Below are positions 9,698 to 32,441 of a DNA stretch of 32,441 nucleotides, one piece after another. The translations under genes and the position numbers were made by a program. Within the stretch, counting starts at the first letter, position 1, and the number at the start of each line of letters is the position of its first letter. The notes beneath the pieces are model-generated. The model was not told where the DNA came from and ran no database searches. It was given only the letters and a program-made list of their open reading frames with translations. The stretch comes from an uncultured bacterium (GTDB lineage: Bacteria; Patescibacteriota; Minisyncoccia; Moranbacterales; UBA2206). Where the stretch lies: positions 1 through 32,441 of the forward strand of contig CAIMIV010000059.1 of NCBI GenBank assembly GCA_903841185.1, read 5' to 3'.

Positions 9698-11092
9698 CTA
9701 TTTTTTAATTATTTTCCAATACCCGCCCTTGTCTGGACCAATTCGTTTCAATAGACCTTTTTCTTTTAACACAACTATATTATTTCTGATATTTTTTTCA
9801 TTAATGCCAACTTTTGCACTCAACTCTTTTTGCGTAATATTTTGATTTTTTTCTATCTCAATAATTATTTTTCTTTGATTATCAGTCAATTTTTCTAGGT
9901 CTTTTTCTAGGTCTTTTTCTAGGTCTTTTTCAGTCACCTTTTCGTATTCCGTTCTTCTTTGCTCAACGCTCATTTTTTGCAAATCAGGTCTTTCAAAAGA
10001 AATACCAAAATAAACATCGCTAACATCAATAATGGGATGTGGCAAAAGATATTTTTCCATCATCTCATTAATTCTCATTAAACCAGAACCAATTTTTTCG
10101 ACAAGATCCATTCTCTGCATCAAGCCAAATAGCAAATTGTTTCGTGGATAACTCTTCTTATACAAATCTTCGACTTTGATGTTTCCAATTAATCTCCCTG
10201 GATTATCGATTACCACCCTGTCGGAAAATATACTAATCTGAATACTAGCGGTTGAAAAATAATCACGATGAGCAATGGCATTTAGCAATGCCTCCCTCAA
10301 TGCTTTTTCTGGTAATTCCAATATTTCTTCTCGAGGCCCACCCTTTATGATAAATTCCGTGTTCAGCTTTGAACGTAAATAATTCATAGCACTTTCATAA
10401 TTACTAAACAAATCTCCATCAAATTCCTTGGTATCAATGATTTTTGTCTTAGTTTTACCCATGAAAAGAGCACAGATTATAGTGGCACTGCGGGCAATTC
10501 TTGTCGCTTTTTTACAAAACAACAAAGCACCTGCGTTTTTTATTGTTTCTCCGCTTAATAAGTCTAAATTTTTCAAGATGTCTTTACGACTCAGTTTGGT
10601 TTTGATGTTCATCCTGGACAAAAAATTTTCATAAGCGCTCTCATTAAAATCCCTATCAAAGCTAAATTTCTGATTCGGTGCCTCATCAAAAAGAACTAGT
10701 CCTTCCTTTTGAAAAAATTCCTTAATTTCATTTCTCGTGAGTTGCTGACTATTGGCTCCTTGGCGCAAATAGAACTTTCCCCCGATTGAATAGGGTTTTT
10801 CCTTGCCCTCCGGCACATCGATAACCAAGATATCCTCCATTTCTTGCAAGTGGATGGTCATTTTTGGATCAAGATTTCTGCCGATGGTTTGAATTTCTGA
10901 CTTCAAGCTGTTGCTGATTTTAATTCCTTTTTTCTTTCCAGTATCAGTTATGCCAATGAATATCTTTCCGCCAGAAGCATTGGTAAAAGCACACATCTCT
11001 TTAGCGATGGAATTACTATAAGCCTCTTTGAATTCAATATTATATCCTTCCCCTTGGCTGATGTGGAATTCTAATTCTTTTTTTGTAAGCAT
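9698..11092 (-). CDS. AlbA_2-domain/HATPase_c_4 regulator with winged helix
   Basis: Full-length 464-residue member of the 'RecG-like/AlbA_2' family, found widely as putative transcription regulators or defence-associated proteins. About residues 15-125 are the AlbA_2 (Schlafen-related) domain: EFKEAYSNSIAKEMCAFTN, ASGGKIFIGITDTG, KPYSIGGKFYLRQGANS. Residues 250-370 are the HATPase_c_4 part: LPEKALREALLNAIAHRDY, VVIDNPGRLIG, NNLLFGLMQRMDLVEKIGSGLMRI. A linker of DLEK repeats leads to a C-terminal winged helix (ITQKELSAKVGINEKNIRNNIVVLKEKG). A truncated paralogue lies at 7388-7846. A perfect 12-bp inverted repeat at 11134-11163 sits in front of the gene and may be its operator. Confidence 0.85.
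   Translation of the reverse strand: MLTKKELEFHISQGEGYNIEFKEAYSNSIAKEMCAFTNASGGKIFIGITDTGKKKGIKISNSLKSEIQTIGRNLDPKMTIHLQEMEDILVIDVPEGKEKPYSIGGKFYLRQGANSQQLTRNEIKEFFQKEGLVLFDEAPNQKFSFDRDFNESAYENFLSRMNIKTKLSRKDILKNLDLLSGETIKNAGALLFCKKATRIARSATIICALFMGKTKTKIIDTKEFDGDLFSNYESAMNYLRSKLNTEFIIKGGPREEILELPEKALREALLNAIAHRDYFSTASIQISIFSDRVVIDNPGRLIGNIKVEDLYKKSYPRNNLLFGLMQRMDLVEKIGSGLMRINEMMEKYLLPHPIIDVSDVYFGISFERPDLQKMSVEQRRTEYEKVTEKDLEKDLEKDLEKLTDNQRKIIIEIEKNQNITQKELSAKVGINEKNIRNNIVVLKEKGLLKRIGPDKGGYWKIIKK
9890..9931 (-). repeat. 12-base tandem repeat encoding DLEK linker
   Basis: About three and a half copies of CTTTTTCTAGGT (plus strand) encode EKDLEKDLEKDLEK. Copy number can change by slippage without loss of frame, so linker length is probably variable between strains. 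Confidence 0.8.
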
Positions 11093-14888: not shown

Positions 14889-17800
14889 TTAAACCCTATC
14901 AGCTTCTCTATACCCCCACTTTCTAACTCCAAAAATAACAATTATCAATAAGACGATGAGACTAATAAAAATTTCTTTTCTAATTAAATTTTCATTCTCC
15001 TCATCATTCATTCTATTTTCCCATTTATTTTCTTTTTTATCAACTGCATCATTTCTTGTTTCAATGTAGGCATTTGTATTGGGAATAATAAAAGCATCCG
15101 CGAGCTTTGCTCCAATAGAGGCCATCGGCGTGGTTTTTATTATTGCAGCAACCTGAGTTGTTTTTTTCTTTTTGTGTTTGTGATTATTTCCATTGCTATC
15201 ATTATCATCATTCTGTACGTCTTTTTCAATTCTAATCAAATCACCGCTGGTCACTGTGCCATTGAGAATTGGCGCCACTTCATAATCATATACCCCATCT
15301 CCATTCTCATCAATGCTCATTTTTGAGACACTGGCCAGACTATTTGAAATGTCCAGCATCACTTTTGTCTTTGGAGTAGTGGGCATGTCTTTGAACGTAA
15401 TCCTATTGAGCGATTTGTCCCCTCGCAACTCATCCACAGAAAAAGTGAACGTGCCATCCCCATAGCCATCCATCACAATATGTTGACCTGAGCCTTCATC
15501 AGAAAAAATATATTTCACATCGCCAAATTGCTGATAATATGTTCCGGAAATCCGTTCTTCAATTTTTCCATTTTTGTCGATGCCGGTATGCACGCCTTGA
15601 GCGTCATAGATGTTGAGGGTAAGTGGAGAATGCAGAGAATATTGAAGGCGGTCTTTATTTGAAGCAAGTGGGACTTCAGTAGAAAGATAGGTGTAATCTG
15701 AAATATTTTTAGTCTTGTTTTCAATATTATCCTCAATAAAAGAACAGAGACTAGAAATTTCAAGTATGTCAGCATGCTTAGTATTAAAAAATCTACTAGC
15801 AATAATCCTATTATAAAGACTATTATATTTTGCCATATCGACCCAATACCTATCTACATTCCCCATCCACAAAGCACTCGGCGTGACCACTGTGCCATCT
15901 CCATCAATCGTGAATTTGAAATCCGGATTAAGATATTCTGTGCTTTGTCCGCAAACAGGATCACAAGGCTTCCATCGCTCAGCGCCATAATCAATATCAC
16001 TCAAACTAGGCACGCCCCAACCGGCAATTTGGACTATTTTTACGCCTTCCGGCGCAATCCAATTATCCAAATCATTGTGTACATTGTTAGCTTTTTCTAA
16101 TAGGTTTTCCTTTAATCTTGAAGGACTATCGGTATCAGAATCAATCGCTGAAACTCGCCTGAAATCATCCGTCATAAAGTCATCCATTTTCTCCTTTGAA
16201 TTAATCGAACTATCATAGCGATTTTTCCAGTCTTTCGATGCATCTAAATCAAATTTCAAAACTGGGGTTTCCACGGTGGAAAAATATTTTTCACTTGGCA
16301 GAAGATTATAGGCTCCCGGCATATTTTCGCTCAACCCTCTGGCAGTCTGAGTGCTAAAAACCGGAAGGATACCTTGATCCTTGCCGTGCAACATCCCTGC
16401 CACCGCAGCTGGGGTGCCCACTTGCGGCACAGCCACAAAAATAATTTTATCCACTAGACTTTTAGCCATCTCACTTCCCAGCTCCTTCATTAACGCCTTA
16501 GTCAGAAGACCGCCAGTAGAATGAGCGACGATGGTTACCTTTCCTGTCTTAGAATTTTCCGCCAATGTGTGGATACTGCTGATTATTGATCCATCTTTTA
16601 ATATATCATCCAATGACAAGCGCCAATCATAGGCGATAGCCTTCCAATCATTTATCACTTTATCATCATTTTTCATTTTGTTCATCTGCTCAATGAACGA
16701 TTTATAAATATTAGACCCGACAGGCGTTTCATCCAGTACGTCGCCCGTTTTTGTATACATGCTATTAATGCTTTTGCCATCTGAATCTAAATATAACCGA
16801 CGCACATCGTCATTACAATTTGGCTCCCAAGCCTTATTTAGGCTTTTTTCATCATAAGGACAATTTGAATCAATATTACTATACAATCGACTCGCTTCAA
16901 GCCCAGGCAAAAACAAAACATTAGAGACTTTTGGAGTATCTGCAAACTCTACATTACTCCAACCATCCAATGTGTAATCGCCTGCAATAGACTCCCCCAC
17001 ACCTATTCCATTTGTTTTCGGACCGCTTGCATCCCCATACCAATTATTTTTGAGCGTCACTTTAGTCTTGTCATGCCAACTAGGGTCGCTTTCCACTGCG
17101 CGTTGGCAAGAAGTATTACAAACTTCACCATAAAGACTATAATCATCAGCATAATGACTCTTGCATTCATTAAAGCAGTTTTCAAATAGGGTGTTGTGCA
17201 AGTTCGTGTTTGTGACATTGGAAAGCATGGCAGTGTTTTGGGAATTGTGTTGAAAATTGGAATTTTCGATATGCAAAAAACTTTCCGTATTCCAATCACC
17301 ATATTCCATGGCAACTTTGACGTCAGCATGAGCATTGTTTTCAAAAGTACAATTTTGCATAGTCACTCTGCCGGAATAGAAAGCCACGGCCGGAGCCACT
17401 TTCTCAGCTGGAGCGGCATAGGCAGTGGGAAGCAACATATCCTTAATGCTATTATTCAGACTCAAGGCAGGACAATTAGTTGTATCATAGGAATACTCGC
17501 CGCCCATAGCTGAAAACTCCACAAACTCAAAAATAGACTCCGGGTCATCATCATAATTGCCCGGACCACGCAACTCAATGGTGCCAGTTGACGCCACAAA
17601 GCAGTGCGGGTCATAGAGCCCACCCTCTGCAAAAACAGGCGGAATTCCAGCCAATTTGATTCTTGCGTCCATCGTGCCGATTGCCACGATACTGCCATAA
17701 ATATATAGATGGCGAAAAGCCAGTTGCGATCCTTTTTCAATGGTCAGGGTCACTCCCCAATCCACATAGATATTGTCATAGTGAGACAAATCCGTGTCAT

Positions 17801-17960
17801 TGTTCCAAGTAGTGTCCTCGCTGATATGCACATCTTCCAAGGGCTGTGACTCGCCTGCCACAACATTTTGCGAGAGATAAAAAAAATCAATCCGCAGCGG
17901 ACTGATTGCCAGGAAAGCAATTAGGATTAGGACAACTATTTTTTTACCAGCTCGCTGCAT
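14889..17960 (-). CDS. Large secreted beta-helix/LCAT-like hydrolase with C-terminal anchor
   Basis: 1023 residues. An N-terminal signal or anchor (8-22) leads to a right-handed beta-helix (about 45-340: LTIEKGSQLAFRHLYIYGSI, VTMQNCTFENNAHADV, LHIENSNFQHNSQNTAML, VTLKNNWYGDASGP). Next is an alpha/beta-hydrolase of the lecithin:cholesterol acyltransferase type (about 346-735). It opens with VLFLPGLEASRLY and WEP, has the nucleophile elbow IVAHSTGG (Ser481), the acid in DGDGT (686-690) and a histidine in KHADIL (His729). A beta-rich region, a His/Lys-rich stretch (HKHKKKK) and a C-terminal membrane segment (about 990-1010, ISLIVLLIIVIFGV) follow, ending in a short basic tail. So it is probably displayed on the surface and acts on lipids or acyl esters, possibly of a host cell. 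Triad assignment is by pattern only. Confidence 0.85.
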   Translation of the reverse strand: MQRAGKKIVVLILIAFLAISPLRIDFFYLSQNVVAGESQPLEDVHISEDTTWNNDTDLSHYDNIYVDWGVTLTIEKGSQLAFRHLYIYGSIVAIGTMDARIKLAGIPPVFAEGGLYDPHCFVASTGTIELRGPGNYDDDPESIFEFVEFSAMGGEYSYDTTNCPALSLNNSIKDMLLPTAYAAPAEKVAPAVAFYSGRVTMQNCTFENNAHADVKVAMEYGDWNTESFLHIENSNFQHNSQNTAMLSNVTNTNLHNTLFENCFNECKSHYADDYSLYGEVCNTSCQRAVESDPSWHDKTKVTLKNNWYGDASGPKTNGIGVGESIAGDYTLDGWSNVEFADTPKVSNVLFLPGLEASRLYSNIDSNCPYDEKSLNKAWEPNCNDDVRRLYLDSDGKSINSMYTKTGDVLDETPVGSNIYKSFIEQMNKMKNDDKVINDWKAIAYDWRLSLDDILKDGSIISSIHTLAENSKTGKVTIVAHSTGGLLTKALMKELGSEMAKSLVDKIIFVAVPQVGTPAAVAGMLHGKDQGILPVFSTQTARGLSENMPGAYNLLPSEKYFSTVETPVLKFDLDASKDWKNRYDSSINSKEKMDDFMTDDFRRVSAIDSDTDSPSRLKENLLEKANNVHNDLDNWIAPEGVKIVQIAGWGVPSLSDIDYGAERWKPCDPVCGQSTEYLNPDFKFTIDGDGTVVTPSALWMGNVDRYWVDMAKYNSLYNRIIASRFFNTKHADILEISSLCSFIEDNIENKTKNISDYTYLSTEVPLASNKDRLQYSLHSPLTLNIYDAQGVHTGIDKNGKIEERISGTYYQQFGDVKYIFSDEGSGQHIVMDGYGDGTFTFSVDELRGDKSLNRITFKDMPTTPKTKVMLDISNSLASVSKMSIDENGDGVYDYEVAPILNGTVTSGDLIRIEKDVQNDDNDSNGNNHKHKKKKTTQVAAIIKTTPMASIGAKLADAFIIPNTNAYIETRNDAVDKKENKWENRMNDEENENLIRKEIFISLIVLLIIVIFGVRKWGYREADRV

Positions 17961-29643: not shown

Positions 29644-29654
29644 TAACCCCAACT

Positions 29655-29679
29655 AAAAAAGCCCGTGGGGGCTTTTTTT
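29655..29679 (+). terminator. Terminator of the PEGA gene
   Basis: AAAAAAGCCC and GGGCTTTTTTT pair around a GTGG loop, 12 bases after the stop. It has a T-run on both strands. Confidence 0.85.
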
Positions 29680-29727
29680 GCTGGGATATTTTAGAGAATT
29701 AACTCCTTAATTTTAAATTCAAAATTA

Positions 29728-29769
29728 CCCGCCTCGGCTTGACGAAGCGTCAGCCTGAGTCGAGACGGG
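29728..29769. repeat. 42-base palindromic element (family A), intergenic
   Basis: All 42 bases are identical to 8689-8730. It lies between the PEGA-gene terminator and the histidine kinase remnant. Confidence 0.88.
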
Positions 29770-29788
29770 GAAATTAGAAATTTCCGTC

Positions 29789-30091
29789 CTATTCCCATTT
29801 CGCCAACAACTCTTCCGATTGCACTAGCGGGATTTCGATGATGAAACGCGAACCGCGGTCTTGGCCGTCGGATTCGGCCCAGACCTTTCCGCCATTGGAT
29901 TCGATCATATTGCGGCCGACATAGAGCCTCAGGCCGGTGCCGCCGGTGTTGAGACGCGAGATGCCTGCCCCGTAGCAAGTCGCCTCGACTTTGCTTCTGG
30001 GGTCCTTGCCCCGCGAAAATTTGGCAAACAAATAGGGCAGTTCCGTAGCCGGCACGCCGATGCCGGTGTCTGACACGGTGATGCGAGCGTT
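29789..30091 (-). pseudogene. 3' remnant of a histidine kinase (HATPase_c) with in-frame insert
   Basis: It codes for the last part of a sensor kinase ATPase domain: NARITVSDTGIGVP (G1 box), LPYLFAKFSRGKD (F box), then ISRLNTGGTGLRLYVGRNMIESNGGKVWAES and GSRFIIEIPL. The dimerisation domain, the N box and everything before are missing; sequence homology ends within 30092-30097, where a TAG stop follows in frame. Between GKD and ISRL sit 13 extra codons (PRSKVEATCYGAG) from a palindromic element. The second glycine of GTGLGL is Arg, another sign of decay. It abuts the stop codon of the reductase/AspRS fusion, which marks a recombination boundary. Confidence 0.82.
29963..30001. repeat. 39-base palindromic element inside the kinase remnant (family B)
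   Basis: The stem CCCCGTAGCAAGTCG / CGACTTTGCTTCTGGGG around CCT fills an exact 39-base in-frame insert. Its edge GCCTGCCCCGT is shared with the 48-base insert at 4949-4996, where it runs in the opposite sense to the host gene. Confidence 0.75.
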
Positions 30092-30097
30092 CTATTT

Positions 30098-32107
30098 TTA
30101 TGGAATAAGATTTTTAAAAGTTCTCGGGAAAACAACAGCATCCGACACCATCTCAAGATCCAGCAACTTCGCAAACAAACGATCTATGCCGAGCCCAAAA
30201 CCGCCATGAGATTCTGAACCATCAACAATGGATAGATAAAAACTATAATCACCTGGATCAATACCTGAAAGACGCATTGATTTTTCTATACTAGATCGAT
30301 CAGTTTCCCTAATTGCTCCACTTGCTAATTCCCATCCTGCCATAATAATGTCAAAAGTTTCAGTTAATCCGTCATCAATTTTCTTGGTATAAAATTTCTT
30401 TATAGTATCTGGATAATTTCTTACAACAAAAACATCACTATTGCGCTCCCGCTTGATTATTTGCCCAAGTTTTGCCTCTCCAATTAATCCAAGATCCTCA
30501 CCTAATGCGATATTGTGACCCCTAGAATTTAAAATGCCCACAGCTTCTTTATATGTCATAACCGGCACTAAATCTATGTCTGGTAAGATAAGATTTTTAT
30601 TTTTAATTTGATGAGAATGCTCTATACGTTTCCTAGCATCAAGAATCATCGAGTAAGCCAACTTGTATACCTCATCTAAATTCTTAGGTTGGCTAAACTC
30701 AACATCTAAACCAATTGATTCTTGCAAGTGCCTATATGACTGACTAGTTTCTGCTCGCCAAAAGGGGCCTATCTCATAAATTTTTTTGAGACCAGATACT
30801 ACGATCATTTGTTTATAAATCTGATTTGATTGCCGTAAAAATGCTTGCGATCCATCTTGCCAAGAAACATTTATAGCGCCACCCTTGTCCACCTTAGGTG
30901 GGTCAGTTGAAATACCAACAATATATGGCGTAGTAACCTCGATAAATCCCATTTTATCTAAAAAGCTTCGTATTGATTTATATCCAGTATTTCTAATTCC
31001 AAATATTTTCAATTTTTCATCATCCAATTTACAAGCAATTTCTTTTTTTTGTTTATTAAAGGTAATCTTTCCGATTTCCTTCTTTAAGCTATCCACTGCC
31101 GTGAAGACATATTTATTTATAATCTCACGGGATTTATTGATTTCTGATTTACGTTTATCAATATTGTTATTCGCTTCTAGTGATATATCCTCAATGTTAA
31201 TAATCCTTACCTCAGACATACTCCTTAATAGCAGTGAGGGACTAGCCAAGTCAACTAACAGTTTTGGCTTTGTATTTATTTTTTCTACCTGACCTAATAA
31301 ACTTTTAATGTATTCTTCAGTTTCACCATTTGAACTGATAGCAACAACGATACATTGACTATCCAATAAATTAGAATAATCAGCCATTTCAACCACATCA
31401 ACATTTTTTTCTTTTTTTATTTCAGCAAGAGCATCTGCGGATCTATTGGCAATTTTTAGATGATAACCAAGCTCATTATTAAGAATTTTTGCAATTAATT
31501 TTCCTGTTTTTCCATAGCCTATAAGTGAAATTGTGCCTCCTTTTTCAATTTTTTGACTAACTATTTCTGCAGCAATTCTTTCAAGTGAAGTGTTTCCAGC
31601 AAATAAATTTGTTCTAAGTTTTACTTCCGAAGCAAGGCTCTTAATCCATAAGCTTATTATTGGAAATGTTGGATTAGTTGGTTGAATTTTGATAGCAATT
31701 TGCAGAGCATCGCTTACTTGTGATAAAACCTGAGAATCGCCTATGGTAACGCTATGTAGACCAACAGAACATTCTCCCAAATATCTTATAGCCTCACTAT
31801 TTTCAAAAAATTTTATGGATTTTATTGAATCAACAACCCCACTTCTAGATAATTTATCCCAAACACTCAGTACTCTCCCTTGAATAAAATCTTTTGAAAG
31901 ATTATCATAATAGCAAAAAATAACCATAACCGCATTACACTTTTCTATAATTACAAGCTGCTCCACTTGAAAACCAAGCTCTTTTTTAAAATTAGAGATT
32001 GTTTCTACGTCATTATTCAAGTAAGCACTTGAAAGCTTACCAAGAGATTGACTATCAAGTCGCTGGAAATTTAAAGACGCACAAGCTATGTTTATTGGTA
32101 GATGCAT
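30098..32107 (-). CDS. Glutamyl-tRNA reductase-like / aspartyl-tRNA synthetase-like fusion enzyme
   Basis: 669 residues joining two enzyme types. Residues 1-150 resemble the GluTR catalytic domain: VIIEKCNAV holds the thioester cysteine (Cys57, next to Asn58), and GLHSVTIGDSQVLSQV matches the GLDS..GE.QI.GQV block. Residues 160-310 are the NADPH domain (SLIGYGKTGKLIAKIL with G197/G199/G202, KIANRS, VVAISSNGE, LLVDLASP). A helical piece (315-345) replaces most of the GluTR dimerisation domain. Residues 365-669 are a class II synthetase core closest to archaeal-type AspRS: FLRQSNQIYKQM (Asp-binding QS.Q..K), motif 2 FWRAETSQSYRHLQESIGLDVEF, ELASG.IR, and motif 3 GGFGLGIDRL. The OB-fold anticodon domain is absent. 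GluTR's usual Arg, His and Glu at the substrate site are changed (Ala59, Tyr109, Asp124). I infer aminoacylation followed by NADPH reduction to an amino aldehyde, perhaps from Asp. The gene starts 17 bases after an SDR gene. Confidence 0.85.
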   Translation of the reverse strand: MHLPINIACASLNFQRLDSQSLGKLSSAYLNNDVETISNFKKELGFQVEQLVIIEKCNAVMVIFCYYDNLSKDFIQGRVLSVWDKLSRSGVVDSIKSIKFFENSEAIRYLGECSVGLHSVTIGDSQVLSQVSDALQIAIKIQPTNPTFPIISLWIKSLASEVKLRTNLFAGNTSLERIAAEIVSQKIEKGGTISLIGYGKTGKLIAKILNNELGYHLKIANRSADALAEIKKEKNVDVVEMADYSNLLDSQCIVVAISSNGETEEYIKSLLGQVEKINTKPKLLVDLASPSLLLRSMSEVRIINIEDISLEANNNIDKRKSEINKSREIINKYVFTAVDSLKKEIGKITFNKQKKEIACKLDDEKLKIFGIRNTGYKSIRSFLDKMGFIEVTTPYIVGISTDPPKVDKGGAINVSWQDGSQAFLRQSNQIYKQMIVVSGLKKIYEIGPFWRAETSQSYRHLQESIGLDVEFSQPKNLDEVYKLAYSMILDARKRIEHSHQIKNKNLILPDIDLVPVMTYKEAVGILNSRGHNIALGEDLGLIGEAKLGQIIKRERNSDVFVVRNYPDTIKKFYTKKIDDGLTETFDIIMAGWELASGAIRETDRSSIEKSMRLSGIDPGDYSFYLSIVDGSESHGGFGLGIDRLFAKLLDLEMVSDAVVFPRTFKNLIP

Positions 32108-32124: not shown

Positions 32125-32441
32125 TTATTCTCTATAGACTACATCAACCGACGCTTGATGCAATGGCGTAATCGTTATTTCACAAATTTGAACATGTTGT
32201 GGCATTGATATTACATATGAGACAGTGTCAGCTACATCATCAGCAGTTAGCGGTTTTATTCCTCTATACACATCATTAGCTCTTTCTAAATCCCCACGAA
32301 AACGAACATTACTAAAATTTGTTTCAACTAAGCCAGGCTGAATATTCGTCACTTTAATATTTTTATCTACAAGCTCTTTACGCAATCCGTCACTGATAAA
32401 TTTTACTGCCGACTTAGTTGCGGCATAAACAGCGCCTTTGG
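32125..32441 (-). CDS. Short-chain dehydrogenase/reductase, 5' part outside the window
   Basis: Only the C-terminal 105 residues are in view; the start lies beyond the right edge. The visible part opens with KGAVYAATKSAVKFISDGLRKEL, which has the SDR catalytic Tyr-x3-Lys (YAATK). It goes on with IKVTNIQPGLVETNFSNVRF and LTADDVADTVSYVISMPQHVQICEITITP, most like YdfG-type NADP-dependent 3-hydroxy acid dehydrogenases. An aldehyde or hydroxy acid would be its substrate. It lies directly upstream of the reductase/AspRS fusion, same strand, so the two are very likely co-expressed. An internal TTG at 32385 could be mistaken for a start but lies after the active site. Confidence 0.9.
   Translation of the reverse strand, partial: KGAVYAATKSAVKFISDGLRKELVDKNIKVTNIQPGLVETNFSNVRFRGDLERANDVYRGIKPLTADDVADTVSYVISMPQHVQICEITITPLHQASVDVVYRE

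Follow-up and report, generated by a model that had tools for sequence, protein, structure and literature searches.

To our knowledge, no enzyme besides glutamyl-tRNA reductase (GluTR, HemA) has been described that reduces an aminoacyl-tRNA; in GluTR, the arginine that follows the Cys-Asn pair, together with a histidine, belongs to the substrate site. Its reaction with Glu-tRNA proceeds through an enzyme thioester, which is then reduced by NADPH (PMC7242693). In ErdS, a fungal fusion of aspartyl-tRNA synthetase (AspRS) with DUF2156, and in LysX (LysRS-MprF), amino acid activation and the enzyme that consumes its product are contained in one polypeptide, which combines tRNA aspartylation or lysylation with acyl transfer onto a lipid (PMC9437257). 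Synthetase cores can also load thiols: the acceptor of the SerRS-like aa:CP ligases is the phosphopantetheine of a carrier protein, and AspRS is able to pass aspartate to free thiols as Asp~S thioesters (PMC5370406). SbzA and AcmF are synthetase relatives that have been recruited for aminoacyl-tRNA-dependent biosynthesis, where the aminoacyl group is transferred onto a sulfonamide or sulfamate; a review of such natural-product enzymes mentions no reductase or aldehyde chemistry (PMC12945691).

We analysed a window of 32,441 nucleotides (contig CAIMIV010000059.1, positions 1 to 32,441) from an uncultured bacterium of the Patescibacteriota. One of its reading frames (30098..32107, reverse strand; 669 aa, ATG start) had been described in an earlier note as a GluTR-like reductase fused to an AspRS-like core without an anticodon domain, and Pfam and fold matches, together with recurrence of the frame in other genomes, agree with this description. 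The fusion resembles ErdS and LysX in joining activation to consumption; unlike them, its synthetase part has no anticodon domain and its partner is a reductase. The proposed acceptor, a cysteine of the reductase in the same chain, distinguishes it from the aa:CP ligases and AspRS, and its reductase chemistry from SbzA and AcmF. A literature search found no GluTR-AspRS fusion and no published precedent for the architecture, for which the note had likewise named no standard pathway. The fusion and the AspRS and short-chain dehydrogenase/reductase (SDR) encoded beside it point to an undescribed pathway from aspartate to an amino aldehyde or alcohol.

Architecture and recurrence of the fusion protein

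Pfam searches with the fusion protein identified GlutR_N at residues 37-147 (E 1.3e-9), a Shikimate_DH/NADP domain at residues 189-308 (E 4.4e-11) and tRNA-synt_2 at residues 363-663 (E 5e-51). No anticodon-binding OB domain (PF01336) was detected in the protein by Pfam, and GlutR_dimer (PF00745) was absent from both the protein and the whole window genome. All features of the protein lie on the reverse strand. The GluTR-like N-terminal catalytic domain (aa 1-165; 31613..32107) was assigned from the GlutR_N match, a profile alignment and an invariant Lys-Cys-Asn, with the Cys57 codon at 31937-31939. It is followed by an NADPH-binding Rossmann domain (aa 171-321; 31145..31597), which was recognised from the Shikimate_DH match, contains the motifs GYGKTG and ANRS, and matched in fold the GluTR nucleotide-binding domain 3oj0 as well as 1gpj. 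Secondary structure in the model places the counterpart of the GluTR 'spinal' helix at aa ~305-358 (31034..31195), and the synthetase core begins at the end of this helix, where the dimerisation domain of GluTR would be expected. This AspRS-like class II catalytic core (aa 360-669; 30101..31030), identified from tRNA-synt_2, the 1b8a match and a tree, contains motifs 1-3 and a pocket made up of QSxQxxK and R600.

A full-length AlphaFold model had a mean pLDDT of 82.6 and a pTM of 0.49, at which the halves can be read singly but their relative placement cannot. The structure search with the full model listed the synthetase half only, so a separate model of the reductase half was made and used as a query. 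Residues 3-360 matched residues 1-341 of Methanopyrus kandleri GluTR (1gpj; Z 25.3, 332 aligned, rmsd 3.5), a match that stops at residue 341 of about 404, and residues 360-669 matched residues 126-438 of Thermococcus kodakarensis AspRS (1b8a; Z 35.6, 300 aligned). Taken together, the two matches put the join at the start of the GluTR dimerisation domain and just past the end of the AspRS anticodon domain. As modelled, the N-terminal half is a complete GluTR fold minus the C-terminal dimerisation domain, joined at approximately residue 360 to the AspRS core. The likeness to GluTR (1gpj, and 4n7r from Arabidopsis) thus covers the fold of residues 1-360, the Cys-Asn pair, the NADPH-binding Rossmann domain and the spinal helix; unlike GluTR, the fusion has no dimerisation domain and is joined to a synthetase core. 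Class II cores of the AspRS type themselves form dimers, and the fused core may therefore have taken over from the lost dimerisation domain.

Among NCBIfam families, the N-terminal half was nearest to HemA (92.1 bits, cut-off 209.55; TIGR01035) and the C-terminal half to archaeal-type AspRS (235.5 bits, cut-off 353; NF003483), the latter scoring 110.7 bits against asparagine synthetase A (AsnA; cut-off 368, NF005052). Judged by these scores, the halves are clearly related to HemA and AspRS and belong to neither family.

The same fusion was present in five further species, at 35-57% overall identity (n=6 in total). Genome G005, from the same family as the window genome, encodes a full-length fusion of about 50% identity. 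In G140, from the same class, the protein lies in two frames broken at the domain junction (L026 8745-8823); the two deposited assemblies of this sample both show the break, which may be a sequencing error, a pseudogene or a true split. We rejected G140 as a split-gene form of the system, because it carries the same fusion with a single frame break at the junction. A search of genome collections added L031 (bacterium BP9.bin93) and L035 (Candidatus Falkowbacteria), and provided independent records for G005 (L034) and G140 (L032 and L033). The L033 contig is binned as Flavobacteriaceae but bears the operon of the Azambacteria from the same sample, and is mis-binned. A profile of the reductase half found the fusion in 3 of the 384 genomes of the class, in one more (G815, identical to L031) among 380 genomes of the phylum, and in a distant sixth (G1114) among 374 genomes of the class of G815. 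All carriers are Patescibacteria, or probably so, an assignment based on named relatives (L032 Azambacteria, L034 Parcubacteria, L035 Falkowbacteria).

The earlier note had suggested looking for the fusion in other genomes and had named an assembly join as the finding that would overturn it. That five other species carry the fusion excludes both an assembly chimera and chance, and the fusion cores form one clade in the tree (support 100/99). The fusion system, though genuine, is rare and its distribution patchy. In L035 the fusion has a GC content of 35% within flanks of 42-45%. No full-length match was found that would indicate viral, phage or plasmid carriage, and PADLOC gave no match to a defence system.

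Active-site residues in the two halves

In a family profile aligned with Arabidopsis GluTR, Cys57 falls on the column of the GluTR catalytic cysteine, as the note had assumed, and the catalytic cysteine of the distant fusion in G1114 aligns likewise with the Arabidopsis and M. kandleri enzymes. Lys-Cys-Asn and the NADPH-site motifs GxGxxG and NR[ST] are kept in all six fusions, and their conservation at 35-57% overall identity suggests that the reductase site is under constraint. The arginine that follows Cys-Asn in both 1gpj and 4n7r is replaced by alanine in five of the six fusions and by cysteine in G1114. At the position of the GluTR histidine, tyrosine or phenylalanine is found in five of six; since G1114, the most distant copy, still has histidine, its loss would be a later change. 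The alignments indicate that the catalytic parts are held, while a substrate-recognition position is changed in every copy. The residues read in the earlier note (Cys57, Asn58, Ala59, Tyr109, Asp124 and Q426-S427-x-Q429-x-x-K432) were all correct. Its claim that GluTR substrate-site residues had been lost is strong for Ala59, the arginine being absent from all six copies, and needs qualifying for the histidine in view of G1114.

In the synthetase cores, Q426, S427, Q429, K432, R451, H460, E593, S596, R600 and R643 are invariant (6/6). By comparison with AspRS, these residues would serve ATP binding and the pocket for the aspartate side chain; the pocket comprises Q426, S427, Q429, K432 and R600, and is conserved together with the ATP motifs. 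The TEGG loop of AspRS normally reads the amino group of the substrate. In its place, the five close fusions have TDPxKxDKGG and the G1114 fusion has TDPxxxD. In the window protein the altered gating loop, TDPPKVDKGG (aa ~399-410; 30878..30913, reverse strand), was located by alignment with archaeal AspRS and AsnA, and has low confidence in the AlphaFold model. Archaeal AsnA (3p8t) has TDP at the same loop position. The change hints that recognition of the amino group, or the carboxylate that is activated, differs from AspRS, and with the amino-group loop replaced the fused core may act on something other than plain aspartate.

The fused core therefore has features of two described enzymes. 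It resembles archaeal-type AspRS (T. kodakarensis 1b8a/3nel) in its catalytic core, motifs 1-3 and aspartate side-chain pocket, and differs in the missing anticodon domain, the altered loop and a score below the family cut-off. With archaeal AsnA it shares an AspRS/AsnRS-like core without an anticodon domain and the TDP loop; unlike AsnA, it has an AspRS-like pocket and an attached reductase, and it scores weakly against the AsnA family (111 bits, cut-off 368). AsnA forms a long branch in the synthetase tree. A free-standing core of the TDP type, 324 aa in length, adjoins the operon in L031.

The operon and its surroundings

In four genomes (the window genome, G005, G140 and L031), which represent four species across different families and classes, the fusion gene is found in the order AspRS - SDR - fusion on one strand, with intergenic gaps of at most 17 nt or overlapping genes. 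The window contains the 3' part of the SDR gene (32125..32439, reverse strand; whole gene C59:32125-32877), identified as an open reading frame with YdfG as its NCBIfam match; the reading frame of the operon AspRS (C59:32883-34274) lies outside the window. This AspRS is a complete bacterial-type enzyme with an OB domain and without the GAD insertion, and scored 610 bits against a curated cut-off of 443. Another AspRS, of the archaeal type, is encoded elsewhere in all four operon genomes, and in the window genome and G005 it lies within a response regulator - AspRS - transporter locus, where relatives without the operon have their AspRS. The operon AspRS is thus an extra copy, and is unlikely to be the housekeeping enzyme.

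The four operon AspRSs form one clade (support 99/95). Identities for all three operon genes pair the window genome with L031, and G005 with G140. The window genome and G005 share one family and L031 lies outside their class, so the pairing contradicts taxonomy and indicates, from gene comparison, that the operon is transferred horizontally as a unit. The L035 genome has the fusion but no SDR homologue and no operon or bacterial-type AspRS, and hence neither partner is strictly needed.

The SDR gave a strong Pfam match to the SDR family and had YdfG as its best NCBIfam family, at 226 bits below the cut-off of 411 (NF007829). Among solved structures, those closest to it include YMR226C, sulfoacetaldehyde reductase and clavaldehyde dehydrogenase. 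YdfG and these enzymes use NADP and have small substrates, either carboxy- or sulfo-aldehydes or else beta-hydroxy acids, and aspartate 1-semialdehyde would fit this substrate type. No transporter or peptide gene is conserved across the operon. One tRNA-Asp was present among 30 listed loci of 39 tRNA scan matches in the window genome, and no dedicated extra tRNA-Asp was seen among the loci listed.

Next to the fusion gene, at 29646..30090 (reverse strand), blastn and a HATPase_c remnant revealed the partial, diverged 3' end of a histidine kinase gene, including its terminator. The operon separates it from the intact histidine kinase gene (C59:36138-37889); the copies are 76% identical over 301 nt by blastn, and an insertion in the window copy accounts for approximately half of the difference. 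On sequence grounds this flanking duplicate looks like an insertion or duplication scar. Amidohydrolase_2 genes flank the operon at C59:34397-35431 (L024 5398-6432) and at L031 8907-9896, but were rejected as a conserved operon member, since the two copies are 21% identical over part of their length. Genes for a glycosyltransferase 2 and a nucleotidyltransferase-like protein occur together in L031 (1423-4405) and L110 (633-4489); the pair adjoins the free TDP-loop core in L031 and the distant fusion in G1114, and these are possible further pathway genes.

Among Patescibacteria, the AspRS at the response regulator - AspRS - transporter locus is archaeal-type in some genomes and of the bacterial type without GAD in others (L028 and L070 versus L062-L068), a variation at one syntenic locus that is an in-place replacement of a translation enzyme. 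Elsewhere in the window, 9698-11092 (reverse strand) encodes a protein with Schlafen AlbA_2, RecG C-terminal-like and winged-helix regions, and 14889-17960 (reverse strand) a 1023-aa protein with a lecithin:cholesterol acyltransferase-like domain, which is unusual for such a small genome.

A proposed pathway and its alternatives

The reading we prefer, tentatively and at somewhat under an even chance, is that the fusion serves as reductase in a small, horizontally mobile biosynthetic operon, in which C1-activated aspartate or an analogue passes through a thioester on Cys57 to an aldehyde and on to the SDR. In the first step, aspartate or a close acid analogue would be activated at C1 and attached to Cys57 through a thioester bond; the loader is most likely the fused AspRS-like core, either via its own adenylate or with aspartate from the Asp-tRNA of the operon AspRS. 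As the retained GluTR residues and fold suggest, NADPH would then reduce the thioester to a free alpha-amino aldehyde, which with aspartate would be aspartate 1-semialdehyde, (S)-3-amino-4-oxobutanoate. From its family, the YdfG-like SDR would be expected to reduce this carboxy-aldehyde to 3-amino-4-hydroxybutanoate. The thioester chemistry of GluTR and thiol transfer by AspRS together provide for such a simple scheme of loading, reduction and release.

The loss of both tRNA-holding parts and the occurrence of the fusion alone in L035 favour an adenylate as the donor; the dedicated AspRS in the operon favours a tRNA donor or self-resistance. Direct transfer from the core to Cys57 is hypothetical, domain placement being uncertain at the pTM of the model. 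We consider it possible, though doubtful, that the fusion is a tRNA-free aminoacyl reductase, in which an AspRS-derived core would make the aminoacyl adenylate, a cysteine in the GluTR-derived domain of the same polypeptide would receive it, and an amino aldehyde would be released. The earlier note had proposed that one polypeptide charges a tRNA with aspartate or a related acid and reduces it. This proposal is supported in part: the reductase chemistry is retained (cysteine, asparagine and NADPH site), Glu-type specificity residues are lost and an Asp-type pocket is kept. Self-charging of a tRNA has fared less well: both halves are without the parts that usually hold the body of the tRNA (in GluTR, presumably the dimerisation domain), and a complete AspRS is encoded in the same operon, beyond the window edge and thus out of sight of the note.

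A somewhat unlikely alternative, and the one that survives best, separates the two halves functionally: the operon AspRS would charge tRNA-Asp, the GluTR half would reduce Asp-tRNA just as GluTR does Glu-tRNA, and the core would be a downstream AsnA-like carboxylate-amine ligase acting on the product or on aspartate. A full second AspRS with an OB domain in every operon, the TDP loop common to the core and 3p8t, and the free-standing core beside the L031 operon all agree with such a division; AsnA activates the beta-carboxylate (PMC5370406). However, the core scores higher against AspRS than AsnA (235 vs 111 bits) and keeps the QSxQxxK pocket of AspRS, the GluTR half is without its dimerisation domain, and L035 has no dedicated AspRS.

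It is improbable that the product of the operon is an AspRS inhibitor, derived for instance from the amino alcohol of aspartate, with the second AspRS as a self-resistance copy. That AspRS does differ in type from the other in each of the four operon genomes, the L031 and G1114 loci include glycosyltransferase 2 and nucleotidyltransferase-like neighbours, and SbzA combines a duplicated synthetase for self-resistance with tRNA-dependent biosynthesis (PMC12945691). Nevertheless, the operon has no conserved transporter or peptide, archaeal-type AspRS is also usual in relatives without the operon, and no inhibitor is known; this explanation is, moreover, compatible with the preferred one rather than exclusive of it. 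We regard as quite improbable a role outside biosynthesis, in which the fusion would deacylate or reduce Asp-tRNA, as a redox-gated sensor or in quality control, or would aspartylate RNA or protein. Synthetase relatives such as AS-A and YadB often modify other acceptors (PMC9437257), and there is only one tRNA-Asp among the tRNA loci listed; but the SDR in the same operon suggests a small-molecule product, a rare, patchy and mobile distribution is unlike that of a translation factor, and no defence family matched. That the fusion is the GluTR of the organism, supplying 5-aminolevulinate for tetrapyrroles, is very improbable and was rejected: despite a GluTR fold with the catalytic cysteine and NADPH site, the arginine is lost in six of six copies and the histidine in five, the HemA score of 92 bits is far under the cut-off of 210, the dimerisation domain is missing here and GlutR_dimer from the window genome, HemB was not found in any of the five fusion genomes searched, and the neighbours are an AspRS and an SDR, all of which supports the role outside haem synthesis that the note had proposed.

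If the fusion is indeed the reductase of a biosynthetic operon, aminoacyl-tRNA or aminoacyl-adenylate chemistry would extend to amino aldehydes and amino alcohols. The tRNA-free version would be a carboxylic acid reductase made from parts of translation and the haem pathway, carried on a mobile operon. The proteins of the pathway are of ordinary size and directly assayable. Patescibacteria have small genomes and are usually regarded as poor in biosynthetic pathways, and the operon would reveal such a pathway in this group.
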